Source of the DNA: Siniperca chuatsi
Taxonomy: Eukaryota; Chordata; Actinopteri; Centrarchiformes; Sinipercidae
Assembly: GCF_020085105.1 (NCBI RefSeq)
Contig: NC_058058.1
Location: forward strand, 6,378,175-6,442,174
Direction of reading: 5' to 3'
Length of the DNA stretch: 64,000 bases
Shown here: piece by piece, positions 4,790 through 58,203 of the stretch
Layout of the letters: each line of letters begins with the position of its first letter
Position numbering within the stretch: the stretch's first letter is position 1
Notes under the pieces: generated by a model
What the model saw: only the letters and a program-made list of their open reading frames with translations
What the model was told of the DNA's origin: nothing
Database searches by the model: none
Made by a program: the position numbers and the translations under genes

Positions 4790-4832
<43 letters not shown>

Positions 4833-4930: not shown

Positions 4931-5022
<92 letters not shown>

Positions 5023-5085
5023 AAGAGAGAGAGACAGAGAGAGAGAGAGACAGAAAGAGAGAGACAGAAAGAGAGAGACAGAGAC

Positions 5086-5174
<89 letters not shown>

Positions 5175-5196: not shown

Positions 5197-5300
5197 CAGG
5201 TGACACACTGTTCTGTTCTGTTTTAGATGGTGAATCTCAGCACTTTGGGATCCTCCAGTCTCTCCTTGCAGGGTACGACCAACCATCAGGCTGCAACTGG

Positions 5301-23345: not shown

Positions 23346-35598
<12,253 letters not shown>

Positions 35599-35800: not shown

Positions 35801-36018
35801 TTTCGACGTCTCGTTGTGTCACAACAGAAAAACGAAAAAGGCTTCAGTCCGGAATATTCAACATGTCAAGAAATTTACATTATTTTATTATACATTAGTG
35901 CTTTTATTCTTGATCATAGTCTTCCTGAATTGTTTTGGTGTGTTGAACATGTGCTTTTTGGTTTCTATGCCTGTCCCAATTAACAATTAATTACTATTTA
36001 TAATTTGTTTTTTTATAT

Positions 36019-36520
36019 AATAATAATAACATTTTATTTATAGAGCACTCATCAAAACAAAGTACAAAGTGCTTTACAACAAGAGAAATAAAATATCACA
36101 GTGAATGATGAAATATAAAGAAATAAAATACATAAAATACACAATAGCAATAAAATAAGCAGACAGTTCAGGTAAAATCAGGATCTGCTTTCAGATAAAA
36201 ATGTGTTTTGAGACGAGACTTAAACAAAGACACTGACTCAGAAAACCTAATTTCTTTGGGCAAGTTGTTCCAGAGCCTCGGGGCCCTGATAGCAAAAGCT
36301 CTGTCCCCCTTAGTTTTCGTCCTGGACTCAGGAACAGACAGAAGACCCCTGCCCGAAGATCTCAAACTACGTGAAGGTTCATAAGGGATTACAAGGTCTA
36401 AAATATAATCTGGAGCCAGGCCATGAAGAGCCTTAAAAGTAATCAACAAGATCTAAAAATCAATCCTAAAACCAACAGGGAGCCGATGCAAAGAGGCTGA
36501 AACAGGTGTGATGTGATATA
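36019..36520 (-). mobile_element. L2/CR1-type LINE 3' fragment, second copy
   Basis: Same sequence as the fragment at 17,283-17,870 but on the minus strand, including the ITFKALHGLAPDYI segment of an undamaged 93-codon stretch, and ending in ATT/AAT repeats at its 3' end (about 36,019-36,030). It is 5'-truncated near the same point of the element. Confidence 0.85.
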
Positions 36521-37469
36521 TATAATATTCTTTTCTTATTTATTGATTAATTTTTTATTTTTCCGTTATTTTTTTAAATTAGTTTATTATCCCCTTTTGT
36601 TCTTGGGTGTGTGCAGGTGTGTTTTGAGTAAAAGAAAAAAGAAAAATTTCAACTCAAGGTTCACTTACTACCGGGCCAACTCCATCTGCTGATGAAGACT
36701 TTGAGATGCAATTGAAAGCACAGGAAGAAAAGCATTTATTTTTTTTTCAGCGTGAATGTTAATTCTTGATGTTTGAAATAGTACAAAATAAATACCAACA
36801 TAAAAAAATCTTAAGTAAACATCTACTTACTCAGGAAACTATCTACTGATATGACATGCAGTTGTAAACTCCCCCAAAAAAGTTAGTAAGTAGAGTTATT
36901 GATTTATTGGCAAAATGATGTATGTTTATTAAAAACAAAACATTCCCCATGTTAGTGCAGGGAGGTTTCTATATATTATGTTATATTATATATTATTTAA
37001 CTTTGGACAACCTTGCTAAATATTTTTTTCAGTAGACTTTTCTGACTATGCAGGATGGTGTGTATAGTATTAGCTACATAGTCCAAACTTTTATAATTTC
37101 TTTGGTTTCTTTGAAGATTGTTTTCAGTATTTTGCCTTTGTTTGATAGTGACAGTACAGATTCAGTCAGCAAAGATGGAGAGGGAGAGAGGGAATTTCTT
37201 TCACTTTAAATTGTTTGTTTTGCCCTTTTTCCACTAAAACAAACTGTTTCTGCTTCATCAACCCAGTTACAGTACAGATCCTCGAGACTTCGAGAAAAAT
37301 AATACAATCTCATCACCTTCTCTGTGAAAGTCTCAAAATAAATAAAGCAATAGACCAACACATCATCACTCTGTGACTTGATTGTTACAGAATAAAATTC
37401 ATTTGTTTTTTCTGAACAAAAGAGAAGTGGAACATGGCACAATGAATAAAAAGTTCAGATTTTGGGGAA

Positions 37470-37500
37470 CAAGACGCTTTATAAAGCCCTCCCCGTCTAG
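37470..37500 (+). promoter_or_regulatory. TATA-like element of C-type lectin receptor gene 1
   Basis: TTTATAAAG at 37,478-37,486 lies 80 bases before the ATG and would place transcription start near 37,510. A homologous but altered block (CTTTAAGATAAAG, about 43,940-43,953) precedes the second paralogue, which supports shared promoter function. Confidence 0.5.
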
Positions 37501-37565
37501 GAAGGACTTTAACTAGTGTTCTGTGAAGCCTTTATTTAGTTCTCACTGGAGGTCACAGCAGAAAA

Positions 37566-37752
37566 ATGCCTGAAGCTGATGTGGTGTACTCTGATGTCAA
37601 GTTCACAAGAGAGAGGGAAATCGCCAATGGTGAGTCTTATATATGATACTTGATCTGTCTATCTATCTCTCTATCTATCTATTGTTCTCTCTCTATCTCT
37701 CTCTCTCTATCTATTTATCATTCTCTCTCTATCTATGTTTCTCTCTCTCTCT

Positions 37753-37800
<48 letters not shown>

Positions 37801-40800
37801 TTATCTATCCATATACAGACGGGTAACAAATTAAAGGAAAGACCGACATGAAGTGTGTTAGTGTGGAGTCCGGCCTCCTCGCCTAGTCTGTGGAACTCTG
37901 TTGGAGGGATGAACACCATTTCTCCACAAGATATTCCCTCATTTATATAAACAACCTGTATTTAATCAGGTCATCTCAGTGAGTCCAAGATCTCTTTTGC
38001 AAGAGAGACCCGAGTGCAGCAGATAAAAAGAAAAACAAACATAGTCAGAAATAACACAAGGACATATAGAGACAGTCACAGACATCACTAAATAGATTTG
38101 AAGCTGAAAGTTTATATTATATATAGAGAGAGATAGAGATTTTCTTCAAAATAGGTGTGAAACTGGGTTGAGATGTGGTGACTGTAAAGGCCGTAGCTTT
38201 CTAAGAAATACCTCCAAGATGTGTTTTCTTTTGTTTGTCAGAGTTTGAGTAAAATATTTATATTTAATCTTACACTTCATCATCAGTAGTCAGCGAGTTC
38301 ATCAGGACTTTGGTTTTGTGTTTTGTTGTTGCAGGGACAATTTCCTCATTGGCTGAAACCACTTACTCTGAAGTCAGGATCTCAAAGACTCAGCCATCCA
38401 CAGAGCTCCCTGGTGGGTAATAAACAGGAAGGTGGACTGTGACCTCCTGTCAGTGGTCATCATGAAGCAAACCGCCACCAGTCTCAGCATTTTTTATTTT
38501 TTCCAGAATGAAAACGTGTATTCTTTAATCAGACTGCTTAAGTGCTCGGCCCTGGGAAACAGAAGACTATTAAAATGCCAAAAAGTTTAGAAACGGCAAC
38601 TTAATTCCTTAGAAATTTTTTTTATTGTGAATAATACCATGTACACAATAAAATGTATATTGTGTACAGCAAAATGTATTACAGTAAAGAAATCAAATTT
38701 CTAACCTAAACTTTTAATACTTTACATAATAAAATGTGTGTCCCTCTTTAAAATATTGCATCTTTATGTAACTTTAATCAGTTAAACCACCTTTATTGTT
38801 TTACTATAGTTCAAGCAAATAGGAGACTAAATATTTAGAAGCTTAAAGGGTCATTTGAAGGCCACTTTTTAAAACACTGTAACTTTAAGGTATATTCACA
38901 GCTATAAATTAACACATTTGAGGTGCATTAAAGGGAAAACTGGCATTTTGTGTGTTTCTCAGCTGACTAAAATTTTAAAAATAATAATAATCTGTACAAA
39001 TATATTACAAACATTACTGGTGTGAACAAGCTTATAACAGCATCTGAAACTGTCAGGGCTTTGACTGAAGTAAACTGAATATGGAGCAAACGTCTGTGAT
39101 GACACATTATTGCAAATATGATGTAACTTTGAGGGGTTAAAATCAGGCATGGCAACTTTTTTACATGTCGTGTCCTTCTTTCTCGTAATATCTCCCGCTT
39201 TTCCCGACTGCAAAGAAAGAATGAAAGACAAACAAAATACCACTGGCTGTAGAGAGGACATATTGAAGAGAGGACATGTTGAAGAGAGGACATGTTGGGA
39301 GGGTCTTGTAGTTCACTGTAAAATGGAGAAAAGAGAAGAAGTCAAAGTCAAGAAAAAGGAACTATATATCGTCTGTTATCTGTTGCACAGTGTTTCCTGT
39401 AAATATTTTTTATGTGCTGTGGTCCTTCCCATCTTCACTGGCTGCGTAAACGTTCAAACAGTTGTGTGTGTGTGTGTGTGTAGACCTGAGTACTCATATT
39501 TGTGCACTTGATGTTATATTTTAACCTGTCATGTGTGCAGAGGCTCCTTGGGTGATGCATAATAAATAAACAGAAGTTGAGGTTACAGCCAGAGATCTGC
39601 AACGTAAGAAAGAGCTCAGAGCAGCAAGTGAGGAAAGTGTGTGAATGTGTGTTTTTCTGTAACAGTCTTTCTAAAAGTTCCTTAATACAACAACATATGA
39701 ACGGGTTACCAAAGCTTTAAAGGCCATTGTGACTATTACAGTATTACAAGTTCAAATTGCTCTTTTCTGTTTAAATATCAGTATATCAACATGTGTCTCA
39801 GGAGACATCTTTAAAACTATGATTCTAACAAACACCTGTAGAAGTAATCCAGTAAATCAGCCATAAAGTGCATAAAGTTGAACTATTTACATTAAAAACT
39901 TTTAGATTTTTTGACTGATCTCTCAGCTTTTGAGAAAAAAAAAACATCACAAAGTCTTAACTTCTGTACATAAGCACAATTTTGTGGTATTTGTACTTTA
40001 CATGAGTATTTTCTTTTCATGCCACTTTCTACCTCTACTCCACTACATTTCAGAGGTCATTTCTAAGGCTGCAGTATTATATTGTACAGGTGTTCATGTT
40101 ATTAGTCCACCTTCTTCACGTTTTCTCTGTCTGCAGTCTTTAACTGCAACTAGTTAACTTGATGAAGTGAACTAGCTCATTTAGGTTCGGGAGCAGGGCC
40201 ACGCGTCAACCACACCTCCAATCACCTGGTATACCTGGTCAACCCGTCCTGTCCTGTTTGTCTCAGTTTTCTCGACACACCCTCCTTTTCCCTCCCCCTC
40301 ATCCACTTACTTCTTTACCTCATCCCTCCCTCTGCACATCCCTATTCACATCCACATATTTTCATAATATTGCTCTATCCTGCACACTTTATATCCTGCA
40401 CTTACTTATTGCACTTCTGGTTAGATCTATACTGCATTTCGTTGCTTTGTACTTAAAACAGCCCCCCCCCTTGTGGTGTGGTCCTTGCTAGCAAACATTT
40501 AGAGACCTGGTTTCGTATACACATGGCCAAGCCAAGAAATCAAATACACGGAGGAACTCCCGCCCCAATTACAGAAACTGGGTTTCTCGATGTTTAAGAA
40601 ACAAGTTTAGTGGAGAAAGCACGCTGTGACCTGGTTACTTAAGTGCATGTAAACACACTGTCTGTCTCTTCTGCTGTTCAGTAGCTTCCCAACAACAAGC
40701 GGCATCAAATGGAGGGTCAAAGGTCACATCAGAGAGAGTGGCCTTGGTAGTTCTCAGTGCTCTCCTGGCAGCTGCTGTCATCGCTCTTGGTGTTACCTGT

Positions 40801-42589
40801 GAGTTTGTACAGTTCTTAATTAATTTAGATTGACTCATAGAATCTGATGGGTGTTTTAAAGAACAGACCTGGTGGCTTTTTTTTTTGTTTTTTTGCATTG
40901 ACAGAACAGGATAACAGCTTGAAATGAAGTGAAACTCAACAGAACTTTGAGTTTCAAGTTCTGTTTGTTTGGTATGGTTTTTTTCCAGTTGATGTGTTTT
41001 TCTTTTTCAGAACTGTTGTCAGCAAAAACCAAAATGGATTTACAAATGGCACAATTTCAGTATTTTTACAATCCAATTTTTTATCTAGAGCACTCCATAT
41101 TAATAAACATCGCTCTAAGTTAATCTTGGAATGATTCTCCTCTGACAAACAGATGTTTATCAGATGTTCTTCATCAAACACTGATTCACAGTTTATTAAA
41201 TGGGTGCTTGACCTTCACTGGCTATACTTTTTCTTTTTTTTTTTTAAAATCAGCTCATCAAAACATTCAAACCATGGGACGCGTCCAAAACGTGACAGAT
41301 GACCATGAAGCTGTGAAAAAAAATCTCACAGGTAAGCTGTTGTTTGTGTTTGAAACTGTTGAAAATGTGTCACATTTTGGATCAAACTTGGATTGTTTTC
41401 AACAGGTTGGTTTCAGTTTGATTCTGACAGGTGACCCCTGGCATTAGTCTGTTGATTATCTCTCAGCTCAACTGACCGTACCGTAAAAGAGGTTTGTTCT
41501 CTGTTCAGGACTGATGAAAGTGAAATCTTTTTATCCTCTTTCATAACAGAGACACTCAGTGAACTAAAATCATGCTACAAGTCGCAGAAAATATGCCCAC
41601 AATGTCCTGCACAAAATATTAGTAAGTAATGGATTTTCCTTTCTTCCATGTTTGCATCCTCTGATACTGACTAAAGAAACAGTGATCGATTGACAGATAG
41701 AATAATTGATTGGCAGTATACTGTTACTTGAAGTAGAAAACTGTTGCCTCTCTCTGTCTCAGCTGCTGCTCAGATTCACACACTAACTTCAAAGCTCCTG
41801 CTGCTTCTTAATCACACAAATATAAAAAGTGATTTGTTGCACCTGACTGACGTCTCCTGTGATCTCTGAAAGGTGAGCCATGTCTGAAATGTGAAGAAGG
41901 CTGGGAGCAACATGAAGGAAAGTGCTATTATTTCTCCACCAGTACTTCAGCCTGGGAAAAGAGCAGAGATGAATGTCGACAACAAGGAGGAGACCTGGTT
42001 AAGATAGACAGCAGAGATGAGCAGGTATAACACACTGCTGCAGGTTCATGTAGCTCACTGGCTTCGTTTGATCACATCCTTATGTTTCTGTATTAGTTTA
42101 CATGGTCTCTCAGCACAGAAAAGTGATGTTACATGTTGTAATTTTCATCTGTTTTTCCTGTACAGGAATTCCTGGACCTGAAACTGAGAGAAAAAATGAA
42201 CCAAGATGAGGACAAGTTCTGGATCGGACTGACCGACTCAAAGCAAGAGAACACGTGGTTGTGGGCAGACGGCTCACCGCTGAACACGAGGTTTGACTGT
42301 TATAGACACCTTTTTTGACAATTTCCAAAATCAAAGTTACCAGATTTATTTAACTAATTCTTTTTGTTCTCACTATCTCAGTTTGTCTTTTTGGAGCGGC
42401 AATGAGCCAGACAACTGGAAAGGGGACAATGCTGATGGAGAGGACTGTGCGAGGATGGGAGAGAAAGCAGGAGCTGCTTACCTGAAGGGTTGGTTTGATA
42501 AATCCTGCAAAGTGTCTCAAAGAAGTATCTGTGAGAAAGCAGCACAAACTGGACGTGTAATGCTTCACTGTAGTTCACTTCAGGTCTAA
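37566..42589 (+). CDS. C-type lectin-like type II receptor with ITIM and ITSM (paralogue 1, complete)
   Basis: Eight exons: 37,566-37,629; 38,335-38,412; 40,682-40,798; 41,254-41,331; 41,550-41,621; 41,873-42,024; 42,166-42,290; 42,382-42,589. All have GT-AG borders and join in frame to 297 codons plus stop. The cytoplasmic tail carries VVYSDV (Tyr8, an ITIM) and TTYSEV (Tyr32, an ITSM). A single transmembrane helix spans about residues 67-85. A stalk follows, with cysteines in SCYKSQKICPQC, then a C-type lectin domain from about 140 to 285 with the family signatures FWIGL (205-209), EPD (237-239), GEDC (248-251) and closing cysteines 271 and 279. Overall design resembles CD209/ASGR/KLR-type receptors. 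The ITIM/ITSM pair implies recruitment of SH2-domain phosphatases and an inhibitory role on leukocytes (inference). The calcium-site motifs are EPD and WFD rather than classical EPN and WND. AATAAA lies at 42,665-42,670. Exact orthology is not assigned. Confidence 0.88.
37655..37812. repeat. (ATCT)n microsatellite in lectin gene 1 intron 1
   Basis: Tetranucleotide tract starting about 25 bases after the exon 1 donor, mixed with TCTC runs in its first half and purest at about 37,753-37,806. Confidence 0.95.
39960..40062. repeat. Interspersed repeat family A, copy 7 (partial)
   Basis: Contains TTCTGTACATAAGCACAATT and CTCCACTACATTTCAGAGG phrases of the family; lies in lectin gene 1 intron 2. 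Confidence 0.6.
40085..40155 (+). pseudogene. Relic transmembrane-exon acceptor in lectin gene 1 intron 2
   Basis: The stretch GTTCATGTTATTAGTCCACC followed by a pyrimidine tract and CTGCAG matches the sequence in front of the old transmembrane exon of paralogue 2 (50,166-50,211). Here the exon behind it is gone. It suggests the ancestral gene had an additional copy of the transmembrane exon upstream of the present one. Confidence 0.4.
40300..40475 (+). mobile_element. LINE-type 3' tail
   Basis: Pyrimidine-rich segment with ACTGCATTTCGTTGCTTTGT, a phrase found near the 3' ends of teleost LINEs. Non-coding, inside lectin gene 1 intron 2. Confidence 0.4.
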
Positions 42590-42751
42590 CTCAGCCTGTT
42601 AAACAATCTCAGTACAGGATACAGAATGTGGAGCAATGTTACTTTTAGACAGTTAATGTTTAAAAATAAATAGACCCCCTGCAAACATTAAAATGCAGTT
42701 TCTTGAATGTGCTCAACAATTAAGGAAAATATCACATGTAACAGATGACCA

Positions 42752-42870
42752 GTGGTGGAGGAAGTATTCAGATAATTTTTTAAGTAAAAGTGCTAATAAC
42801 ACACTGTAAAAATACTCTGTTATAAAAGTAAAAGTCCTGCATTGAAAATGTTACTTAAGTAAAAGTATGT
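42752..42870. repeat. Interspersed repeat family A, copy 8 (partial), beside a family B fragment
   Basis: CAGTGGTGGAGGAAGTATTC end plus ACTCTGTTATAAAAGTAAAA phrase. A partial family B repeat follows at about 42,878-43,035. The matching place behind paralogue 2 (52,560) lacks about 38 bases between short direct repeats. Confidence 0.6.
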
Positions 42871-43904
42871 ATGTAGAGCCCAAAGTGAAACCTTCATATT
42901 GCTTGTTTTGTCCAACCAACAGTCCAAACCTCAAAATTATTACAAATACATTACAATTATTTAAATAATTCAAAAGAAAAGCAACAAATCTTCACATTTG
43001 GGAAGCTGGAACAATGAAACGTTATCATGGCTAATTGTGGAGGCTAAATAAAAATCCTGTGAAAAACTAGTATGTGCTGGTTTTTGTCGTGTGTATAATA
43101 CATATCAAGTGAGCATTGGTCATCTGGTGGTCCACAAACAAATTGTATGATGAAAAGTGTTCTTTATAGAGCGCCTTCTTCTTCTTCTTCTGCTGACAAG
43201 ACAGATCAAACGTAGATTTTTTCTAAAAAAGTCACTAAAACAAAAATTGATGATTCTCACATATGTTATTTTGGTTATTGCTGTTTTGGAATAAAAAAAC
43301 AATTATTTCATTTATAATTTCTGATCTTCATATTTGGCTTATTTTGCATTTTCCTGTTTTATTGATACTGTGTGATTTTAAATTGTTGTTTGTTTTTAAA
43401 GTTATGGTTTTTGTGTGGACCCCAGGAAGACTAGCGACCACTTTGTGGAAGCTAATGGGGATCCAAATACAGAATAAAGAATATAATTTAGATGATTGTT
43501 TAATAATTTATTAAATGACAGCCTTATCAATCCAAAAGAGCATTTCATTTGTCAACCATAAGGTTCGCTGAGTGAGGCGGTTTTAAAAGTGACACCACGA
43601 CCACAACTGTGACATTTCAACACTCAACACCTCTGATTATTGTCCAGCTGACATTCAGCAATAACACAATAACAGCTGTTATGATTGGCTATCAACACTT
43701 ACAGGGTAAACTATCCAGAAGCTTTTAAGTGTCCCACTCAACCTGAACCCACCCTGCAGTCAAGACAAACAAAAATGACCAGAAGGGGGCAGCACTTCCA
43801 TATTTGTGCCAAAAATTGCACTTATGAATGTGAAATGGCAGAAACACACAGTTCCTAAAACTGAATAACAGATGGAGCAACATCTGATCTGTGGCCTCAC
43901 TGTT

Positions 43905-43975: not shown

Positions 43976-44062
43976 AACAGTGTTATAGTTAGCTCTGTTC
44001 CCCCCGATCCCTGTGAGCTTTTCCTCTCCTTGTGCTGCTCAGGTGTCCCCTGTTCGTGCTGT

Positions 44063-44191
44063 TTGTGAGTGTGTGCATGTGTGTGTGTGCGTATGTCTGT
44101 GCGTGTGTGTGTGTATCTGTGAGTGTGTGTGTGTGTGTGTATATCTGTGTGTGTTTGTGTATGTATATCTGTGTTTGTGCGTGTCTATATC

Positions 44192-44222
<31 letters not shown>

Positions 44223-44751
44223 CTATGTGTGTGTGTGTGTGTATGTATATCTATGTATATCTGTGTGTGTGTGTATGTATATATCTATGTGTGTGTGTAT
44301 ATGTGTATATATATGTGTGTATATCTGTGTGCATGTGTGTATATGTATATCTGTGTGTGCATGTGTGTATGTATATCTATGTGTGTGTGTGTGTATGTAT
44401 ATCTGTGTGTGTGTATATATGTATATCTGTGTGTGTGTGTGTGTGTGTATATCTGTGTGCATGTGTGTGTATGTATATCTATGTGTGTGTGTGTATATAT
44501 GTATATCTATGTGTGTGTGTGTGCGTATGTATATCTATGTGTGTGTGTGTGTATGTATATCTATGTGTGTGTGTGTGTGTATGTATATCTATATGTGTGT
44601 GTGTGTGTATATCTATGTGTGTGTGTGTGTGTGTATGTATATCTATGTGTGTGTGTGTGTGTATGTATATCTATGTGTGTGTGTGTGTGTATATCTATGT
44701 GTGTGTGTGTGTGTGTATGTATATCTATGTGTGTGTGTGTGTGTGTATGTA

Positions 44752-44782
<31 letters not shown>

Positions 44783-44893
44783 ATGTATATCTATGTGTGT
44801 GTGTGTATATGTATATCTATGTGTGTGTGTGTATGTATATCTATGTGTGTGTGTGTATATGTATATCTATGTGTGTGTGTGTATGTATGTATA

Positions 44894-44943
<50 letters not shown>

Positions 44944-45475
44944 TGTGTGTGTGTGTGTGTATATATATCTATGTGTGCGTGTGTGTGTATGTATATCTAT
45001 GTGTGTGTGTGTGTGTGTGTATGTATATCTATGTGTGTGTGTGTGTATATATGTATATCTGTGTGTGTGTGTGTGTATGTATATCTGTGTGCATGTGTGT
45101 GTATGTATATCTATGTGTGTATGTGTATGTATATCTATGTGTGTGTGTGTGTGTGTATGTATATCTATGTGTGTGTGTGTGCGTATGTATATCTGTGTGC
45201 GTGTGTGTGTATGTATATCTATGTGTGTATGTGTATATATGTATATCTATGTGTGTATGTGTATGTATATCTATGTGTGTGTGTGTGTGTGTGTATGTAT
45301 ATCTATGTGTGTGTGTGTGTGTGTATGTATATCTATATATGTGTGTGTGTGTGTGTATATCTATCTATGTGTGTGTGTGTGTGTGTATGTATATCTATGT
45401 GTGTGTGTGTGTGTATGTATATCTATGTGTGTGTGTGTATGTATATCTATGTGTGTGTGTGTGTGTGTGTATGTA

Positions 45476-45524
<49 letters not shown>

Positions 45525-45525
45525 A

Positions 45526-45574
<49 letters not shown>

Positions 45575-45829
45575 ATATATATGTGTGTGTGTGTGTGTAT
45601 GTATATCTATGTGTGTGTGTGTATATGTATATCTATGTGTGTGTGTGTGTGTGTATCTATGTGTGTGTGTGTATATGTATATCTATGTGTGTGTGTGTGT
45701 GTGTATATATCTATGTGTGTGTGTGTGTGTGTGTGTATATCTATGTGTGTGTGTGTGTGTGTATGTATATCTATGTGTGCGTGTGTGTGTGTATGTATAT
45801 CTATGTGTGTGTGTGTGTGTGTATGTATA

Positions 45830-45892
<63 letters not shown>

Positions 45893-45923
45893 ATATCTAT
45901 GTGTGTGTGTGTGTATATATGTA

Positions 45924-45970
<47 letters not shown>

Positions 45971-45984
45971 GTGTGTGTGTGTGC
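44063..45984. repeat. 1.9-kb compound GT / TATATCTAT tandem array
   Basis: Alternating (GT)n blocks of variable length and ATGTATATCTAT-like spacers, repeated dozens of times with unit lengths of roughly 20-40 bases. The plus strand has no stop in any frame, giving three overlapping artefactual ORFs of about 650-690 codons of Cys-Val-Tyr repeats. Long alternating purine-pyrimidine GT tracts can adopt Z-DNA. The array lies between the promoter-like block and exon 1 relic of paralogue 2. Confidence 0.97.
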
Positions 45985-46201
45985 ATTCTGGTCTGGCTTC
46001 CTGGCTGCGTCCTCTGAGTCTACAGGGAACTACGCCAGACTCCCGCACAGTTATTATTACAGCAATAGTAAAGACAGATACTAACTAAACCCAGTTCTAC
46101 TCCGCCGTGTTCTGCATTTGGGGTTCTTTGATTGTGCACTACGACAAACAGGAAGTTTTTTTTTTTTTTACATAAAATAAAGTGTCACTGATGCTCACTC
46201 A

Positions 46202-46271
46202 GATGTCAGAAGTTGATGGTTGGTGTGCTGTATATTGATGTTAAGTTAAAAAACCGTTAAAAAAAGAGCCG
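46202..46271 (+). pseudogene. Broken exon 1 of C-type lectin paralogue 2
   Basis: Aligns with gene 1 exon 1 (ATG, GAAG.TGATG, TGATGTTAAGTT against TGATGTCAAGTTC). The reading frame from its ATG hits a stop before the ITIM tyrosine. The alternative frame keeps VLYIDV but ends at TAA five codons later. A full cytoplasmic tail therefore cannot be made from this exon. Confidence 0.6.
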
Positions 46272-46417
46272 CCAGAAAAGTCAGTGGTGAGTTTTAAATA
46301 TGCAGTTTATACCATCTATGTATGTATCCATCTATGTATCTAATGCTGCCAAAGCTTTCAAAAAAATACCAAATACTTCCACGAAGTGTTTTTATTTGTT
46401 ATGAGTGTATAACATGA

Positions 46418-49400
46418 ATGTTTACAGGAGAAATGGAAAGCTTAACTTCCACAGTTACACACATAATTTCAAAAGGACACAACAGCATTTTGGTTTTTTG
46501 GCTTTTTGTTACAGAGAAAGTCTCCTCATCGACTGACACCCCTTGTTCTGAAGTCAGGATCCGGAAAACTCACACAATGAGCCGTCCACAGGTCTACATG
46601 GAAGGTAAATAACCAGTGGTGGCATGTAACTACATTTACTAGGACTGTACTCTACTTAAGTACAATTTTGAGGTACTTGTACTTGACTACATTTCAGAAG
46701 GAAATATTGCACTCTTTACTTCACTTATTTGATAACTTTAGTTGCTAGTTACTTTGCAGATTCAGATTAATAAAAAAAACAAATCAACCAATAAATTCTG
46801 ATGTATTATTATAGGTTAAGCTACCCAGCAATATATAAAGTAATTGAAATTAGCCCCTTCAACGTTAGTGATGCTTACACATTAATGTATCTATAATGAA
46901 TCCAGTAAAACAATATACAGTATATTATTCTGAAATGGGCCATTCTGAATAGCGAGTACTTTTACTTGTATGTTTTACTTTTTGTTGCCAAAAAAAAAAA
47001 ACTTACTTTAAAGATTTTGAATGCAGGAATTTTACTCATAAGTATTTCTGCACTGTTTTATTACAACTTTTAAAGTAAAGTACTGCTCTGGTAATAATCA
47101 ACGGAAAGGTGAACTGTGACCTCCTGTCAGTGGTCGCCATGAGGCATTTAGCCACCAGTCTAAACAAAACGTGTATCTTAAATAAAAAGACAGTATCTGC
47201 ATATAACTTTATTTATTTATTTATTTTTTAAATTGAGGCCACCTTCAGAGTTGTATTCTATAAATATATAACATTTAGTTCTAGTTACGTGGAAAATACA
47301 TTGAGTGATTTAAACCTTACTTATGACTCCTCTTTTACAGTAGTGCGCTGTTTGAAATGGGAGAGTTAAAAGTTGTAGCCGCAAGATAAAACAACTACAT
47401 TGCAGCTAAAAGATGACAAATAAATAAAATAAAACAATCCCATTCAGGTAACAGAATGTTTCCGTGATTAAGGGAAACTATGAGTAACTTTTGTAAGTTT
47501 AAGTAGGTTTTGTGTGTCTGTGGCATAGATATTTTGTAAAGGGCACAATGATGAGAAGCTGTCAAATCAACTGTATTTATATAGCATGTTTAAAAAAAAT
47601 TAAAAAAGGAGTTGACCAAAGTGTTGTACAGTGAGATGCAGTAGTCAAGTCTTAAGGAGATTAGTGCGGTGGTAAGAGTCTTCATACTGTTGAGAGATTG
47701 AGGATGGACCTGGCAATGTCCCTTAGCTGAAAGTAGCAACCTTTCACCACAGAGTTGATCTGATTCTCAAGTTTCAGTGCAGAGTCAAAGATGAAACCAA
47801 AATTCCTGGCATGGGCATGAAGATTTGATGTCAATCGCCCTAAGTGGCTAGCTACTATATGTTGGGGAGACCAAAAACAATCAGTTCTATCTTGTTATTT
47901 ACAGCTGTTATTTAACTGAAGGCAGTTTTTTGTCATCCAGCATTTCACATCCTGGAGGCAGTTAAGGGTGGATGTGATAGGTGGTATAATTGTGTGCCAT
48001 CCGCGTAACAGTGAAAGGAAACATTGTGCTTGCGGAAGATGGAGCATGTACAGAGCAAATAAAATTGGCCCTAATCCAGGCCCCTGAAATACTTCCTGTT
48101 TCAATACAGGAAGCCGGGATTGAGGTTTAGCTTCTTCATGAGTTCATCACTTGTAAAAGATCGCTGTCTAATAAAATTTCAATATACAGATACTTTAAGA
48201 CTATTCAGTCACTAAATAGACAGACACACTTAACTGGTACTACGAGATTCAGAGAAAAGCATGAACTTATTTTTTTTTGCCCCCTTTCAATTACGACCCA
48301 TTTTAAATTGATGAAATTTGATGTCTAATCTTACAGTAAAAAGGTTAAACAGCCAGTCAGATGTTTGCTGCATTCATTGAGGTGTATTCAAGGTGTTTGA
48401 GTCAGGGGTTCAGATGCCATCTCTCTATTTTGATCTATCCGTACTTCCCGATGGTTACTTCCTAGTCAATCGGAAAAGAAAGAAAGACACACAATCGACT
48501 ATAAAGAGAGGGTATGTTAGTTTACTGTAAAATGGAGTGATGAGAGGAAGTCATGGCAGAGAAAAAATGAGGAACTGACCATGAAGACAAGAGTGACGGT
48601 GTACTTTTCCTCTCACATACACATATGAAACCAAACTCATTTACACACTATACTGAAAACCACACGCACAAACAACTGAAAAATTATACACTCACATAAC
48701 AACTGAAAAGCTCTCATCATAACTATTGAAAAGCTTTCACACATACTAGTAAAGTGTGCTCATATACACAGCTGAAATGCTCTCGTATAAATAATGGTTC
48801 AGTAGTGGAAAATGAGTTTTACAGTAAAAAAGAAGGCCTTCCTTTTATCTGAAGGAAAGAGTAAGATGCCACACTAGGAAGTGCATGTGCTCTTGCTGAA
48901 TTTGAAGTACTTCAACCACAATATGTTCATCTGATCCTCTTTGTTTTTCAAGTCAAAAACTTTTGTGTTTTGAGGCGAGAGGCAATGAAGAGTCCGACAA
49001 TTTCGATCAGGAGAGGCTTTATAGAGTGCTTGATGATCATACACAAACTCTATCTGCATTTCTTGCTGCGTCCAGATATGATCATGATAATAGGAATGTC
49101 AGCAACCTACTAAGATCATTGTATAACGTCTCTAATGGCCCCTACTATACAGCCTCTCCTGAACAAAATTGTTGGACTCTTCGCTTTGCAGTGACTCAAT
49201 GCATTGCAGAGCATGGTGCTATAAGCCTCCAAGTGACAGGAGTCTGGCCAATAGACTCCAATGTTAACTGACAACAGAAATTTCAGGAGGGAAGTAGAAC
49301 AAGGGACTTTTCTAACCTGCTCTAATGCTCACATTTTTGACACTACACACAAATTTCACACAGCGCGGTCTCTTCTCTCTCACGATATCAATATTTAGGC

Positions 49401-52400
49401 AATAGGACTTACGGTCTTGAAGTTATAAGCAGGAGTTTGAGAGGTGGGCCTCAGCTTAAACGCTATGAAATGAACTCCCTCAACCAGGTAACCATCACCA
49501 TCGCCATGGTAACCTTTTATTGCAGGTGGGGAAACACAGGTGATTGAAATGAGCTAATTAGTGCAGTTTGACACACACACATATACAGGACTTAGACACA
49601 CTTTTTCAAGCATTTTTCAACTCTTATCTACTCATTCATACTTTCAGCTAGAAACTCCATTCAAACCTTAAAATATTCCACATCTTTCACACATTACGGG
49701 TATTATTCAACTTTTAAATCCCATTTATACTAATTAGACCCTTCCCCACTTTTCCAACTCTTCATACTCACAGCGTCAGCTTTTCAACATCCAGCAACAT
49801 CCACAATTTCTTCTGAAATTGCCTTCTGTACAGTTCATTATCGAGCTTAAAGGTGCTGGCAGGTGAATTTTGTTACATTTGGAAAGAGCCAAGCTAGCTA
49901 TTTCCAGGCTTTATGCTAAGCTAAGCTAACAGACTGCTATATCATATTTACCTTAGAGACATAAGAGTGGTGTTAGTCTTCTCATCTAACTTTTCAATAA
50001 AACAAGAGTCATGATGAGAAGCATATTTCACAAAATGTCATTTTGGTGGCAGTGATGCACTAAAAAAACTTTGATGTTACCTTACAGCCCTATAACTATA
50101 ACTTTCTGAAATTTTTCTTTTGTTTACTATCTTCTCAGCTTGTGTTTGGAAAGTCTGTATGGGTGTTCATGTTATTGTGTCCACCTTCTGTATTTTCTAA
50201 TCTTTGAACAGGTGAAGCTCCTGCCTCCAATCAATGCTCAGTGTCAAATGGACGGTCAAAGGTCACAAATGATGTTTAAGAAACAAGTTTAGTGGAGAAA
50301 GCACGCTGTGACCTGGTTACTTAAGTGCATGTAAACACATTGTCTGTCTCTTCTGCTGTTTAATAGCTTCCCAACAACAAGCGGCATCAAATGGAGGGTC
50401 AAAGGTCACATCAGAGAGAGTGGCCCTGCTGGTTCTCAGTGCTCTCCTGGCAGCTGCTGTCATTGTTATTTACCGTCTCTGTAAGTTCATCATGTAGACT
50501 GACTTTCAAAAGATCACATAGCTGCACTGGAGAATAAAACAGATGTTTTGGTTTTTAGGGTGACCTCAATAGAACAACTTGAGATAAAATTAATCTCAAA
50601 AGAACCAGTATTTTGTTTGTTCAACATGTTAAACTCCATTAATGGGTTTCAAGAGTAGTTCATATTTTGACAATAATACATCATCACTGTAAGTTAATTT
50701 TGGAAGCAGTGCTGTAAAAAAGGAATCAGGTTGGACAATGGCAATAGAGTTTTAAACAATGATTATTACCAAATGTCAAGTCTCTGCATGTTGATTTCCC
50801 TGGCAAACTGAAATAAATGGAAACCATTAAAGTAAATAAATCAATCTGACGTCATCTTGGAAGGATAATTGTTTATTATCAAGCACTGACTGATTTACCA
50901 ACGGAGTGTTTGATCTGCATTTCCCTTTTTTTAAATCAGCTTTTGAAAACATGCGACACAAGACAACTTTCCAGACACTGAGAGACGAGCATGAAGCTGT
51001 AAAAAGAAATCTCACAGGTAAGCAAGTCAGATTTTGAAACTGTCTAAAAAAGGTTCAGTCTACGAGTTACAAGTCCACTCTAACTTGCATTACAATACTG
51101 CAGGGTCACTTTAAAATGTGAAAAGGTTTGAATTAGTGACTGATCTATGATAATCTGTTTTCAAGCAATCTCTCTTTTTCTGTTTTCTTAGTCTGACTAT
51201 GATGTGTTGGTTCTCTGTTCAGGTTTAGAAAAAAAGACACGTCTTAATAAGACAAATGAAAGTGAAATCTCAATCCTTTTTTCATAACAGGAATACTCTC
51301 TGAAATAGAATCACACAAGATGGTGCATCCTATTCACGGAAACATTAGTAAGTTTTTCCCTTCATGTTTGTGTTTTCTGAAGCTGTTACACCCTCTAATA
51401 ACACCACAGACAGACCTGAATCCTAATGAATTGACAGATACAGTAAATAAGTCAGATAGGGATGGGTTTATTTTGCAGTGCAGCTGCAGGATAACTGCCT
51501 TGCTCAAGCCTGTGAAGGAGAAAATAGTTCATTTGTCTGATTGTCTCAGCTGCTCTCAGATTAAAAGAAACTCTTTAACTTCAGATTCACACACTAACTT
51601 CAAAGCTCCTGCTGCTTCTTAATCACACAAATATAAAAAGTGATTTGTTGCACCTGACTGACGTCTCCTGTGATCTCTGAAAGGTGAGCCATGTCTGAAA
51701 TGTGAAGAAGGCTGGGAGCAACATGAAGGAAAGTGCTATTATTTCTCCACCAGTACTTCAGCCTGGGAAAAGAGCAGAGATGAATGTCGACAACAAGGAG
51801 GAGACCTGGTTAAGATAGACAGCAGAGATGAGCAGGTATAACACACTGCTGCAGGTTCATGTAGCTCACTGGCTTCGTTTGATCACATCCTTATGTTTCT
51901 GTATTAGTTTACATGGTCTCTCAGCACAGAAAAGTGATGTTACATGTTGTAATTTTCATCTGTTTTTCCTGTACAGGAATTCCTGGACCTGAAACTGAGA
52001 GAAAAAATGAACCAAGATGAGGACAAGTTCTGGATCGGACTGACCGACTCAAAGCAAGAGAACACGTGGTTGTGGGCAGACGGCTCACCGCTGAACACGA
52101 GGTTTGACTCTTAAAAAACACCTTTTTTTGACAATTTCCAAAATCAAAGTTACCAGATTTATTTAACTAATTCTTTTTGTTCTCACTATCTCAGTTTGTC
52201 TTTTTGGAGCGGCAATGAGCCAGACAACTGGAAAGGGGACAATGCTGATGGAGAGGACTGTGCGAGGATGGGAGTGAAAGCAGGAGCTGCTTACCTGAAG
52301 GGTTGGTTTGATAAATCCTGCAAAGTGTCTCAAAGAAGTATCTGTGAGAAAGCAGCACAAACTGGACGTGTAACGCTTCACTGTAGTTCACTTCAGGTCT

Positions 52401-52402
52401 AA
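46418..52402 (+). CDS. C-type lectin-like receptor, paralogue 2 (5' end disrupted, ITIM/ITSM lost)
   Basis: Exons homologous to gene 1: 46,515-46,604; 50,367-50,480; 50,940-51,017; 51,291-51,347; 51,684-51,835; 51,977-52,101; 52,195-52,402. All keep GT-AG borders and matching phases, so the chain stays open to the stop. The ITSM reads TPCSEV, with the tyrosine replaced by cysteine. Exon 1 is broken, but an ATG at 46,418 is in frame straight into the 46,515 exon, and another lies at 46,577, so a tail-altered receptor could still be made. The transmembrane helix (VALLVLSALLAAAVIVIY) is present. The stalk exon is 57 bp against 72 in gene 1 and lacks its cysteines. The lectin domain differs from gene 1 at only two codons (GVKAG for GEKAG, VTL for VML). 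The 3' AATAAA of gene 1 is not conserved here. Either a decoy-like receptor or an early pseudogene. Confidence 0.6.
46612..47092. repeat. Interspersed repeat family A, copy 9
   Basis: Begins CCAGTGGTGGCATGTAACTA directly after the 46,515-46,604 exon donor and contains the usual ACTTGACTACATTTCAGAAG phrases. Confidence 0.65.
47560..48115. repeat. Degenerate interspersed repeat
   Basis: Non-coding stretch with TCAACTGTATTTATATAGC and ACAGAGCAAATAAAATTGG phrases that I associate with a widespread fish repeat. Its class is unknown to me. It lies in the long intron of lectin paralogue 2. Confidence 0.35.
48963..49271 (+). other. Unassigned 102-codon open stretch, possible transposon or exon relic
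   Basis: Stop-free from a TTG at 48,963 to 49,271 with a protein-like composition (for example NFDQERLYRVLDDHTQTLSA and QNCWTLRFAVTQCIAEHG), but no recognised domain and no ATG at its start. The last part overlaps a block duplicated at 55,487-55,860 in front of the third lectin copy, where the open stretch is not kept. I cannot say what it encodes. Confidence 0.25.
49218..49600. repeat. Segmental duplication block, copy in paralogue 2
   Basis: Matches 55,487-55,860 over about 370 bases (GCTCCAAGTGACAGG-like start, CTTGAAGTTATAAGCAGGAG, GTGATTGAAATGAGCTAATT), in the same orientation. It marks the tandem duplication that produced lectin copies 2 and 3. Confidence 0.75.
49852..50050. repeat. 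Repeat family C, copy 3 (truncated)
   Basis: Shares TTTATGCTAAGCTAAGCTAA and the GAGTGGTGTTAGTCTTCTC arm with the complete element at 11,250-11,557. Confidence 0.65.
50212..50278 (+). pseudogene. Truncated old transmembrane exon of lectin paralogue 2
   Basis: After a good acceptor (TCTTTGAACAG) the sequence resembles the start of the transmembrane exon (TCAAATGGACGGTCAAAGGT against TCAAATGGAGGGTCAAAGGT). At GATGTTTAAG it switches to the sequence that in gene 1 lies about 90 bases before the intact transmembrane exon. It ends in a stop and has no hydrophobic segment. The intact exon follows at 50,367. Confidence 0.55.
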
Positions 52403-52563
52403 CTCAGCCTGTTAAACAATCTCAGTACAGGATACCGAATGTGGAGCAATGTTACTTTTAAACAGTTAATGTTAATAATAGATCCTGCAAACATTAAAAT
52501 GCAGTTTCTTGAATGTGCTCAACAATTAAGGAAAATATCACATGTAACAGATGACCAGTGCTA

Positions 52564-53442
52564 ATAACACACTGTAAAAATACTCTGTTACAAGTAAAAG
52601 TCCTGCATTGAAAATGTTACTTAAGTAAAAGTATGTTAGTATAATCAGGAAAATGTACTTAAAGTAAAGTAAGTAAAAGTACTCAAAGCAGAAAATGTCC
52701 CCTGTGACTCTTATACTATTACATATTATATTATTAGATTATTATTACTCAGGCATTAATGTAATAGCAGGATTTTATTGTTGTAGTTGGTTGAGGTGGA
52801 GTTCATTTTTAACTATTCTGTATCGGACTGCAAGTAATGATTATTTCATTATGGATTAATCTGCTGATTATTTTCTCCACTAATCAACTGTTTGGTTTGT
52901 AAAACTTCTGAAAATAGTGAGAAATGCCGTCACAATGACCCAGATCCCAAAGTGACGCCTTCACAATGTTGTTGTGTCCAACCAACAGTCCAAACCTCAA
53001 AATTATTGAAATTTAATTAAAATTATTGAAAAAATTAAAAGGAAAATAAATAAATCCTCACATTTGAGAAGCTGAAACCACAAAATGTTTTTACATGAAA
53101 AATGACTTTAACGATTATCAAAATTGTTGGCATTTAATTTTCGGTCTACTGACTAATTGATTAATCAACTAATCGTTTCAGCTGTACTTGTATAAGCTTT
53201 TGGGTAGTTTAATTTATAACAAAACACCATATTTTATAAGATCTTCTTAAGTTTTGTGCGCAAAAATCTTAATTTGTAAAGTAACTAGTAACTAAAGCTG
53301 TCAAATAAATGTAGTGAAGTAAAAAGTACAATATTTGTGAAAGTAGCATGAAAGAAAATATTCATGTAAAGTACAAGTACCTCAAATTTGTACTTAAGTA
53401 TGGTACTTGAGTAAATGTACTTAGTTGCATTCCACCACTGGA
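52564..53442. repeat. Interspersed repeat family A, copy 10, with a nested family B copy
   Basis: Family A phrases at both sides (ACTCTGTTACAAGTAAAAGT; GCATTCCACCACTGG) surround a family B repeat at about 52,825-53,185 that ends GATTAATCAACTAATCGTTT. Confidence 0.65.
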
Positions 53443-54109: not shown

Positions 54110-55170
54110 TAACCTTTTCTTTTTCTTTCGGCTGTTCCCTTTCAGGGGTCGCCACAGCGAATCATGTGCCTCCATCCAACCCTGTCCTCTGCATCCTCTT
54201 CACTCACACCAATTAACTTCATGTCCTCTCTCACTACATCCATAAATCTCCTCTTTGGTCTTCCTCTAGACCTCCTGCCTGGCAGCTCCAACCTCAGCAT
54301 CCTTCTACCAATATATTCACAGTCTCTCCTCTGAACACGTCCAAACCACCTCAATCTGGCCTCTCTGACTCTATCTCCGAAACATCTAACATGAGCTGTC
54401 CCTCTGATGTACTCATACCTGATCCTGTCCGTCCTCGTCACTCCCAGAGAGAACCTCAACATCTTAAGCTCTGCTACCTCCAGCTCTGCCTCTTGTCTTT
54501 TCTTCAGTGCCACTGTCTCTAAGCTGTACAACATCGCTGGTCTCACCACCGTCTTGAACACCTTTCCTTTCATTCTTGCTGATACTCTTTTATCACACAA
54601 CACACCTGACACTTTTCTCCACCCGTTCCAACCTGCTTGCACTCGCCTCTTCACCTCTTTTCCACAGTCTCCATTGCTCTGAACCGTTGACCCTAAGTAC
54701 TTAAAGTCCTGCACCTTCTTCACCTCTGCTCCCTGTAACCTCACCATTCCACCTGGGTCCCTCTCATTGACGCACATGTATTCTGTCTTACTGCGGCTAA
54801 GCTTCATTCCTCTGTTTTCTAGAGCCGACCTCCATCTCTCTAGATTTTCCTCCACCTGCTCCCTGCTCTCACTACAAATCACAATGTCATCCGCAAACAT
54901 CATAGTCCATGGAGATTCCTGTCTAACCTCATCTGTCAGCCTGTCCATCACCAGAGCAAACAAGAAGGGGCTCAGACCCGATCCTTGATGCAGACCCACC
55001 TCCACCTTGAACTCCTCTGTCACACCTACAGCACACCGCACCACGGTCTTACAGCTCTCATGCATGTCCTGCACCACTCTAACATACTTCTCTGCCACTC
55101 CAGACTTCCTCATACAATACCACAGCTCCTCTCTCGGCACCCTGTTATACGCTTTCTCTAAAAGACACAA
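54110..55170 (-). mobile_element. RTE-type non-LTR retrotransposon, 5'-truncated, 342-codon open frame
   Basis: The minus strand encodes the second half of a reverse transcriptase. It starts within the palm motif A region (LEKAYNRVPREELW), continues through the SPFLFALVMD segment and the catalytic FADD box (MMFADDIVICSE), and ends in a C-terminal extension with cysteine and basic residues. The frame runs to a stop at 54,142. The 3' end has the TTTCGGCTGTTCCC and GGGGTCGCCACAGCGAATC phrases typical of fish RTE/Expander-like elements. The 5' truncation at about 55,170 is usual for LINE insertions, and it is not an autonomous element. It sits within the tandem-duplicated lectin region, upstream of the third copy. 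Confidence 0.85.
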
Positions 55171-55486
55171 TGCAACCCCCTATGACCTTCTCTGTACTTC
55201 TCCATCAGAACTTTTCATATCTTTAATAATTTCTATACAATTGCAGTAATTCAAGTTTCATGCAATTTTCAGACCTTCTCAGATTTTTACATTAGTGTGT
55301 ATGGGGCAGTATGTTCAGAGTCAGAGCGGGTGACTTCACACACGGGAGTTTTTTCTCCTCAGAAATAAATTCTTCCTTACTCGCACAATTTTCACTCTTC
55401 ATACATAATTGTTTCTTCAAAACATAGATAAATGTGTGCTCTTTCACAGACTGTAACGATGGAAGCAAACGGACTTACATATTTGG

Positions 55487-55860
55487 TGCTATGAGTCTCC
55501 AAGTGACAGGAGTGCCAAGCACCTGGCCCATAGACTCCAATGTTAAGACCAGAAATTTCAGGAGTTAAGTAGTACAAAGGGACTTTTCTAACCTGCTCTA
55601 ATTCTCACACTTTATTTTGACACTACTCACATATTTCACTCAGCAGGGTCTCTTCTCTCACACAACATCGATATTTAGATGATAGGAGTTACGATCTTGA
55701 AGTTATAAGCAGGAGTTTGAGAGGTGGGCCTCAGCTTAATCTCTATTCAACTCTTTGAGCTGGGACTCACACAGCATCACCATGGCAACCTTTTAAGGTG
55801 GGGAAACACAGGTGATTGAAATGAGCTAATTAGTGCAGTTTGACACACACACACACGTGC
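55487..55860. repeat. Segmental duplication block, copy in front of lectin copy 3
   Basis: Counterpart of 49,218-49,600 in the same orientation, with small indels. Confidence 0.75.
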
Positions 55861-55901
55861 ACAGGACTACTCGTTCATACTTTATCCTTTTTTCATAACA
55901 G

Positions 55902-56560
55902 AAATACTCTGAAATAGAATCGTACAAGATGGTGCATCCTCTTCAAGGAAACATTAGTAAGTGATGGATTTTTCCCTTCATGTTTGTGTTTTCTGAAGCT
56001 GTTACACCCTCTAATAACACCACAGACAGACCCGAATCCTAATGAATTGACAGATTTATTTTGCAGTTCAGCTGCAGGATAGCTGCCTTGCTCAAGCTGT
56101 ACCTGTGAAGGAGAAAATAGTTCATTTGTCTGATTGTCTCAGCTGCTCTCAGATTAAAACTCACAAACTTGCAACCTTTTAATATAAACAGCGATTCATT
56201 GCACCTGTCTGACATCTGCTGTGAAAATGTAAAGAAGGCTGGGTGCAACATGGAGGACAGTGCTATTATTTCACTCTATCAGTTAACATGGTCTCTCAGC
56301 ACAGTGGGCAGACGGCTCACCGCTGGACATGAGGTTTTTTTAACGCTTTTTTTTTTTTTGTCAAAGTTAGCAGATTTATTTAACCAGTTCTTTTTGTTCT
56401 CACTATCTCAGTTGGTCTTTTTGGAGAGGCATTGAGCCGGACAACTGGACAGGGGAAGATCCTGATGGAGAAGACTGTGTGAGGATGGGAGAGAAAGCAG
56501 CAGCAGCTGCTGACCTGAAGTGCCTCAGAGATTATTTGTGAGAAGCAAAACAATTTGGGC
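55902..56560 (+). pseudogene. C-type lectin-like receptor, copy 3 (degenerate pseudogene)
   Basis: A stalk exon at 55,902-55,959 matches paralogue 2 (51,291-51,347) but has lost two bases, breaking the frame. The first lectin-domain exon is cut after its CYYF-like segment at about 56,272. The second is reduced to its last 30-odd bases, joined directly to intron sequence. The third (about 56,412-56,545) keeps SFWRGIEPDNW-like sequence but has lost the segment with GWFDKSC, so the domain cannot close. No transmembrane exon is visible. An AATAAA at 56,651-56,656 remains. Confidence 0.8.
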
Positions 56561-56659
56561 GTCAGATAAGTATATATGCGTGAAGTCCAGTTCAACTTCT
56601 CTGCCTATTTTACAATCTGATTGCAGGAACACAGCAGCAATGCTATTTTTAATAAAGCT

Positions 56660-58203
56660 CATTAAAACAATAATTTACTGATTGTGCAGGTTTAACCAGT
56701 TTATTACTCTGTGCTACAATATAATCTGACACTTTTAACATCTTTGTCGCAAACCACTTTTGGGTCGTTCAGGTTGCCAAGGGGTCACCAGTAAAAAAGT
56801 ATCAGCCAACTTTTTTCAACTACTGTCTTGTTTTATCTTCGCTTTTGAACTTTTGGCAAACTAAATAAAGCATTTATAAAAAATGATATGCCTGAAAAAA
56901 GTTCCAAAACATCTACAGTTAATTTTAATGAGGGGCGATTTATTGGATGAATCATTCAAATGTCTAAATATTTTTATTGGGCTGTTTTTGTCCTGCTGTT
57001 GGTGTTTAAATATTTAAGGCGAAACAAGCTGAGTAAAGGGAGATGTATTAGTGGATTATGCTGTAGTACAGATGGTGTAAGTTTTAAAGGACATTGTGAT
57101 ATTCTTTTCCTGCTAAAGCAGAATTCTCCACCAACAAAACTACAAAATGTTTCAAACTTACAAAAAATGTTGTACTCAAAAAGTTTGGTGTCTCTTTAAC
57201 TTTAGGAAAAGAAAAGCTCCTTTTGTTTTAGTAAAACCTCAAACATTAACTTACCACAAAAGGCAGCATCTCTACATTGTACCTTTTTTAAATATAGACA
57301 AAAGTCAAAATTAACTCTAGAGGACACAAAAAACCTGGATAACCACCATGTTTATTATGAGGATTCACATTAATAAGACTCCTCTGTTCACATCAGTGTC
57401 AACAGTTGTTTCTTAATATCATCAAAAGCCACAGTACATCCACATATGTGTTTGCACTTATTTTGACTGAGTAGATCTGTAGGTGTTACAGGGACGGACA
57501 GAAGAGATCCAATCAGCCTGAACTGGAAACACCTGAGTGGGTGTACAACACGCATGGAGATATGTATAATAATGTAATACAAAGTAAGGTAAAACAAGGA
57601 TTACTTTTCAGCCATTTTATTTATTAAAAATAACAATCTCAAGTCACAACTGAAAGAATCAACTTTCAACTGACTCGAGGGAAACGAAAACAAACCAAAG
57701 ACTTGAAAAACAGTATAAATTGCAGTTAACGTAAGGTTTCCTTTTCTCTTTTAAAATTGAAAAGACGATTTCACAGAAATATTTTAGACTTGTCTGTAGT
57801 GTTAGGCCAGTCTTCATTTTCTTAATTAGATGGGTCTAATGCAAGTTTGACAGCTTTACAAAAATAAAGATGTTTTGAAATAAAGGCTGGTTGTACATTT
57901 TCAAATAATATCAGTGTATTTAAAAAGCAATCCCAAAACATGGAAGTGAGCCTTCAGTATTTGGTAAAACATTCAGTCTTTGTCATGATTTCGTCAAAAC
58001 CTGCAGATAACTTGAAGAGAGAGCCTCTTTTTTTTTTTTTTTTTGTAGATCAACTAATTTTAGGTGTGAGTTTGAGAGACTTAATTTCTGTTTGATGGAA
58101 TGTATTTCTCTGAACTCTTTACACAATTTACACATTATTAAATGCAACCTGATGAACCAGATCTAAACACAGTTCTCCAAAAACAAACAAAAAAACCCCC
58201 ATA
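56660..58203. other. Intergenic region and zmym-like 3' UTR
   Basis: No exon recognised. On the minus strand, AATAAA-type signals near 57,617-57,626 lie about 590 bases past the zmym-like stop and could end that transcript. Confidence 0.4.

Follow-up and report, generated by a model that had tools for sequence, protein, structure and literature searches.

How did a lectin gene come to share one half, introns included, almost letter for letter with the neighbour on one side, and its stalk with the neighbour on the other? This question is raised by the middle member of a cluster of three related genes, here called copies 1, 2 and 3, where the near-identity of copies 1 and 2 sets in abruptly within an intron and the exons just before it are strongly diverged. 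We asked which copy gave sequence and which received it, and by what route the joints could have arisen.

Three tandem lectin genes and their surroundings

The window, that is, the whole stretch of 64,000 nucleotides that was analysed (C17:6,378,175-6,442,174 of a 718.8 Mb animal assembly in 65 contigs, probably of a bony fish judging by the repeats and the lectin type), holds three same-orientation genes between 37.5 and 56.7 kb for small type II membrane proteins with a single C-type lectin domain (CTLD). All three, arranged in tandem, belong to one small subfamily of type II membrane C-type lectins. Unless marked otherwise, the features described below lie on the + strand. In copies 1 and 2, the spliced frame was open all the way from a transmembrane (TM) exon to the stop, across two stalk exons and three CTLD exons (749 bases in copy 1, 734 bases in copy 2), so that both present an N-terminal TM exon, a stalk and a single C-terminal, three-exon CTLD, the layout of a group II (DC-SIGN-like) type II receptor. 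For copy 1, splice signals and the open spliced frame placed the TM exon at 40685-40798 (114 bp), and the spliced model continued with stalk exon A (41254-41331), stalk exon B (41550-41621), CTLD exon 1 (41873-42024), CTLD exon 2 (42166-42290) and CTLD exon 3 with the stop (42382-42589). The corresponding exons of copy 2 were the TM exon at 50367-50480, stalk exon A at 50940-51017, stalk exon B at 51291-51347 and the CTLD exons at 51684-51835, 51977-52101 and 52195-52402. The TM segments of both copies were identified as hydrophobic stretches, judged by eye. The joined CTLD matched Pfam PF00059 (Lectin_C) with E = 2.5e-22 for copy 1 and 2e-22 for copy 2, using query peptides with R at a boundary residue where the spliced gene models give S. 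Among the best 60 of 230 matches in the PDB, the top ones were multi-CTLD receptors (IgY receptor, PLA2R, and LY75), the leading single-CTLD protein was CLEC4E/Mincle, and DC-SIGN ranked lower.

Copy 3 (55484-56680) is, from its reading frame and exon content, a pseudogene or broken gene. A TM exon and a stalk exon A were looked for in copy 3 and not found, its stalk exon B has lost 2 bp relative to copy 2, which brings a stop into the expected frame, and its CTLD exon 1 runs directly into the intron and exon 2 as a result of deletions.

The surroundings of the cluster were also surveyed. An adenylate kinase domain (Pfam ADK) lies to its left in two stretches on the - strand (23346-23669 and 32433-32894), which we take to be probably AK2, and DUF3504 lies to its right in three stretches within 58207-60807 (-), presumably as in ZMYM-type proteins. 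Degenerate, GT-rich tandem repeats fill about 1.9 kb between copies 1 and 2 (44050-45990); they match themselves at many offsets and could favour breakage. Between copies 2 and 3, an open reverse transcriptase fragment of 345 aa (54145-55179, - strand; RVT_1 E = 2.8e-22) probably belongs to a LINE-like element. The window further contains two inverted repeat pairs, 17352-17861 with 36017-36515 (93.5% over 511 bp, perhaps a young repeat family) and 24602-24858 with 62831-63081 (89.9% over 257 bp), as well as about 550 bp of tandemly repeated, purine-rich (GA) sequence at 4642-5199.

Two copy-1-like tracts and a copy-3-like stretch in copy 2

Copies 1 and 2 were about 98% identical across 1.1 kb (41,770-42,870 in copy 1 and 51,581-52,641 in copy 2), a tract that comprises an intron, the three CTLD exons with their two introns, the 3' flank and the start of a repeat element. 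By self-BLAST, 41770-42754 matched 51581-52560 at 98.3% (987 columns, 8 mismatches, 6 gap openings) and a second segment, 42789-42870, matched 52557-52636 at 96.3% over 82. A MAFFT alignment of 41770-42870 gave 17 mismatches in 1054 aligned columns, a count that differs from that of BLAST through gap placement, and its first 529 columns were mismatch-free. This stretch spans the 103-bp end of an intron, CTLD exon 1, a 141-bp intron and CTLD exon 2, and in 20,000 shuffles the longest mismatch-free run of the homologous unit did not exceed 83. Immediately to the left, the introns of the two copies were 50-61% identical and stalk exons A and B about 72% and 60%, with exon edges taken 1-2 bp wider in this comparison than in the spliced models.

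These values agree with the first-pass annotation, which had described near-identity over about 1 kb from 41,771 and 51,583 on, introns included, a first CTLD intron of 141 bp in both copies (42025-42165 in copy 1), strongly diverged stalk exons upstream and two substitutions in the last exon, of which we counted exactly two; the identity profile that it had called for showed sharp steps at the tract edges. Its left start for the tract held as well. The right end, which it had put at 42,745, did not: since the identity runs on into the repeat element, that end point was about 125 bases short, and the real end lies at about 42870 in copy 1 and 52641 in copy 2.

The repeat element at this end is internally shortened in copy 1 (42750-43023, with the terminal CAGTGGTGGA at 42750), and the tract ends within it. 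Copy 2 has a longer repeat copy (52556-53440, ending in TCCACCACTG at 53431-53440), which holds the right tract boundary and from which about 38 bp are absent near the left end. The left part of the repeat falls within the tract and was 94-99% identical between the copies, depending on the alignment method; the right part was 82% identical (149 bp after 42,870), a closer likeness than that to the three other pieces spanning this part within the window (62-69%). The two repeat copies may descend from one shared insertion or from two separate ones. Beyond the repeat, no same-order match was listed between copy 1 to 44,000 and copy 2 to 54,000.

The mismatches were unevenly spread over the tract, with 0 of 529 in its left half and 17 of 525 in its right half, and 2 of 20,000 shuffles were as uneven. 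It could be hypothesized that the left half is the younger and goes back to a second event, but because the right-half mismatches are clustered around indels, and hence are not independent, this reading is only suggestive.

A second tract, absent from the first-pass annotation, was found by self-BLAST and alignment at the TM exon. Here, 40589-40781 of copy 1 and 50271-50463 of copy 2 were 96.9% identical (193 bp, 6 mismatches), of which about 96 bp are intronic and 97 belong to the 114-bp TM exon; to the left of the tract, identity was 46.7% over 152 aligned columns. The last 17 bp of the TM exon of copy 2 differ from those of copy 1, with register and phase kept. Directly upstream, 45 bp of copy 2 (50223-50267) were identical to copy 1 40684-40728 at 34 positions, a number reached by none of 2000 mononucleotide shuffles, and the exon start within the tract (50366-50410) was identical to the same 45 bp of copy 1 at all 45. 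The upstream 45 bp stop 3 bp short of the start of the copy-1-like tract. They look like the first part of an older TM exon of copy 2 itself, cut in the middle, onto which the intron and exon of copy 1 were joined.

Between the two tracts, one stretch of copy 2 resembles copy 3. This stretch (51270-51566), which holds stalk exon B, was 95.5% identical to copy 3 (12 mismatches in 266), in line with the earlier observation that the stalk exon of copy 2 and the intron after it are copy-3-like. Further upstream, copy 2 has a block in common with copy 3 (49214-49620, corresponding to 55484-55895), which had 42 mismatches in 356 for 49214-49581. Stalk exon B and its intron are thus nearer to copy 3 than the upstream block is (P = 0.0014), which suggests a possible further exchange, at stalk exon B, between copies 2 and 3.

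A conversion test across the three copies, also proposed at the first pass, was run as a scripted permutation test of the GENECONV type on 755 ungapped columns. Among the 216 variable sites, copies 1 and 2 agreed at 115, copies 2 and 3 at 84 and copies 1 and 3 at 12, and at 5 all three differed. The longest run of sites shared by copies 2 and 3 was 33 and that shared by copies 1 and 2 was 27, neither of which was reached in any of 20,000 permutations; for the control pair, copies 1 and 3, the longest run was 3 sites (555 of 20,000 permutations). The maximum chi-square breakpoint fell at 51541-51591 of copy 2, and none of 2000 permutations was as strong. Copy 2 is a mosaic, in which stalk exon B and the upstream sequence go with copy 3, and the CTLD half and most of the TM exon are near-copies of copy 1. 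This mosaic relation to a third paralogue, with its significant breakpoint, is what is looked for in an ectopic conversion tract, and the exchange appears non-reciprocal, in that the high identity begins at 40589, ends at about 42870 and is bounded by unexchanged flanks. The sharp steps, the breakpoint and the donor search described below support the gene conversion that had been proposed from the first reading.

Donor, recipient and rival explanations

Were copy 2 entirely native, one would expect the same distance to copy 3 on both sides of the joint. Instead, the noncoding divergence between copies 2 and 3 rose from 7 of 191 on the left of the joint to 14 of 65 on the right (Fisher 4e-5), or to 23 of 65 under two other alignment settings (Fisher 4e-10), the right side being limited to 65 aligned intron bases and copy 3 being decayed and gapped. 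Against the upstream block that copies 2 and 3 have in common (42/356), the right side differed with P = 0.045 under one setting and 2e-5 under the other two. Because this jump coincides with the onset of identity to copy 1, copy 2 is likely the recipient, and its CTLD side is probably foreign. Older exchanges may blur this picture, since the likeness of copies 1 and 3 also rises to the right of the joint under one setting: their mismatches went from 54/139 to 15/65 under the setting that gave P = 0.045, and from 54/139 and 62/139 to 23/65 under the other two. The second tract supports the direction from copy 1 to copy 2 independently, as the copy-1-like segment is joined there into what appears to be copy 2's own old TM exon.

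To look for other possible donors, we searched the 719 Mb genome with 831 bp of the tract, which gave 4 matches in three places, namely copies 1, 2 and 3 (copy 3 in two pieces). With the copy 2 protein as query (150 of 154 candidates scored), all matches of at least 66% identity among the 60 listed lay in the cluster, and those outside it had 26-55%. In these genome searches the best candidates were scored and very common words were skipped. No further copy was found within 50 kb on either side, and five stretches around CTLD hits on contigs C1, C13, C18 (two) and C19 held distant relatives only. Neither genome search gave a close match beyond the three copies, and copy 1 is thus the sole donor seen, although another copy may have been lost or missed.

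The explanation that fits best is ectopic (non-allelic) gene conversion in which copy 1 gave and copy 2 received sequence at least once in the recent past, probably with older exchanges as well; we assign it a probability of about 0.84. Identity by itself is symmetric, and the transfer could in principle have run the other way, copy 2 giving its CTLD and TM segments to copy 1. Among the sites that distinguish copies 1 and 2 towards the right of the tract, copy 3 does share the letter of copy 2 at 8 and that of copy 1 at 3, and several of these informative sites are clustered. But a native copy 2 should not jump from 3.7% to 21% or more in noncoding divergence from copy 3, and it is copy 2 that has, at the tract edge, what appears to be an old TM exon cut short; we regard the reverse transfer as quite unlikely. 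Unequal crossing over, which would make copy 2 a hybrid of a copy-3-like gene in its 5' part and copy 1 in its 3' part, with copy 3 as the residue, would account for the upstream block common to copies 2 and 3, as the order of hybrid followed by original predicts. The sequence downstream of copy 1 should then match that of copy 2 at 98%, yet the identity drops at 42,870 to 82% over the next 149 bp, with no further same-order match listed to 44,000 in copy 1 and 54,000 in copy 2; moreover, the upstream block has diverged by 11.8%, far above the tract, and the separate TM tract requires an additional event. On the downstream drop, the upstream divergence and the separate TM tract we rejected this explanation, which we consider very unlikely.

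A collapsed repeat placed twice in the assembly would produce exact identity such as that across the 529 aligned bases, but further right the copies differ at 17 aligned columns and by several indels, and the joints are mosaic, with native sequence retained. The assembly places 719 Mb in 65 contigs, this contig being 28.8 Mb, with no N in the window or the fetched flanks, and an artefact of this kind appears just as improbable as crossing over. That the tract is centred on coding exons might point to purifying selection alone on the CTLD exons after an old duplication. The identity extends, however, to 244 intron bases (41770-41872 and 42025-42165) and, at 95%, to the 3' flank inside the tract, against about 60% in the introns just to the left; selection alone was rejected on this intron identity and carries hardly any weight. 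Simple duplication was likewise rejected.

Under ectopic conversion from copy 1 to copy 2, the joints themselves can be read. On the right, the TM tract gives way to copy 2's own sequence in homologous register, and the CTLD tract ends within the repeat element common to both copies. The left-hand ends of both tracts are out of register, with copy 2's own stretch followed by the donor version of the same stretch. At the TM joint, donor intron of about 96 bp separates the 45 bp of copy 2's own exon from their donor version; at the CTLD joint, about 20-27 bp are repeated (read by eye), with native ...CTCAGATTAAAAGAAACTCTTTAACTT followed by donor CAGATTCACACACTAACTT... sequence. A broken end of copy 2 may have invaded copy 1 and started copying at the right end, the copying would have run leftwards past the break, and end joining would have closed the repair, i.e., a synthesis-dependent repair with overshoot. 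A duplicated stretch at both left joints is what invasion, leftward overshoot and end joining would be expected to leave, and the two short joints suggest such a route.

First exons, receptor function and known systems

We scanned for first exons with an ATG, an open frame, phase 1 and a GT[AG]AG donor. In 36500-40684, the scan returned a sole candidate for copy 1, about 3.1 kb upstream of the TM exon: a predicted exon 1 at 37566-37629, MPEADVVYSDVKFTREREIAN, with the ITIM-like motif VVYSDV and a phase-1 donor, GTGAG. We take this candidate to resemble the tails of inhibitory NK receptors. By itself the ITIM-like motif is unspecific, as 5, 13 and 2 open reading frame starts with such a motif lie upstream of copies 1, 2 and 3, respectively. 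DNA homologous to the candidate exon is also present upstream of copy 2 (46203-46286), where the local alignment score with copy 1 exon 1 was 22 and none of 300 shuffles scored as high (maximum 17.5). This homologue has stops in all three frames ahead of the conserved donor, and the only other candidate of the scan for copy 2 (48812-48860) is without an ITIM-like motif. Given the three-frame stops, copy 2 may fail to yield a complete protein.

The CTLDs of copies 1 and 2 were identical at 159 of 161 residues, the differences being E119V and M152T, and the two copies share a ligand-binding domain in the way that paired receptors do. A pair of activating and inhibitory receptors would fit the precedents but is not supported at present: copy 1 has a candidate ITIM exon, whereas the matching exon of copy 2 looks broken in frame, and copy 2 may lack a complete protein.

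Related immune receptor genes are already known from print to convert each other's ligand-binding exons. For dog CEACAM1/CEACAM28, a conversion tract of 2,332 bp with 99% identity and flanks of 80% and 92% has been described (PMC2110893), and, as in the present case, the tract is regional, covering the ligand-binding exon and introns with the recipient's other domains kept. That pair is of the immunoglobulin type, from a mammal, and is reported in the same source to be expressed with opposite signalling motifs, whereas here the fold is that of C-type lectins, the tracts are two and separate, and the first exon of copy 2 looks broken. In primate Siglec-11/Siglec-16, the region of the ligand-binding-domain exon has been converted repeatedly between two receptor genes, with participation of a nonfunctional allele (PMC5701461); the kind of exchange is similar, but the fold differs, and that case is known from several species and binding assays, ours from one genome. 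The paired ceacam receptors of Xenopus also show conversion confined to the ligand-binding exon region next to diverged neighbours, although, as described there, the tracts lie within one exon of genes in opposite orientation (PMC5112662), unlike the same orientation and the tract of three exons and two introns found here.

Closer in protein type are the lectin-like receptors of the mammalian natural killer complex, paralogues with a C-type-lectin-like domain for which gene conversion and within-species homogenisation have been proposed (PMC5350243); these are mammalian group V type receptors, and the account cited gives no such tract. Among fish, the DC-SIGN subgroup of the group II CTLD proteins of Fugu is likewise expanded and partly clustered, with four members in one cluster (PMC514892), a likeness by type; the term 'gene conversion' has 0 occurrences in the main text of that paper. 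Among the titles and abstract starts that we surveyed, none described a conversion tract of this kind in fish C-type lectins, and full texts may differ.

The process is a known one and no new one is needed; what is new is the example in this type of lectin and its unusually readable joints. Donor, recipient and an unconverted witness all lie within 20 kb, and because the three are so near and the search of the assembly turned up no further close copy, both the direction and the joints can be read. With the duplications at its left joints, this natural case could make it possible to deduce by which repair route ectopic conversion proceeds. For the cluster itself, a whole-gene tree would mislead. 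Copies 1 and 2 would bear nearly the same ligand-binding domain on strongly different stalks. That copy 2 is expressed through another first exon, and that conversion keeps its lectin head, on a different stalk and membrane segment, matched to that of copy 1 as an ITIM-bearing, DC-SIGN-like receptor, seems to us unlikely; if true, fish would have here a C-type lectin receptor of the paired or decoy kind, put together from three sources through one-sided repair that overshot.
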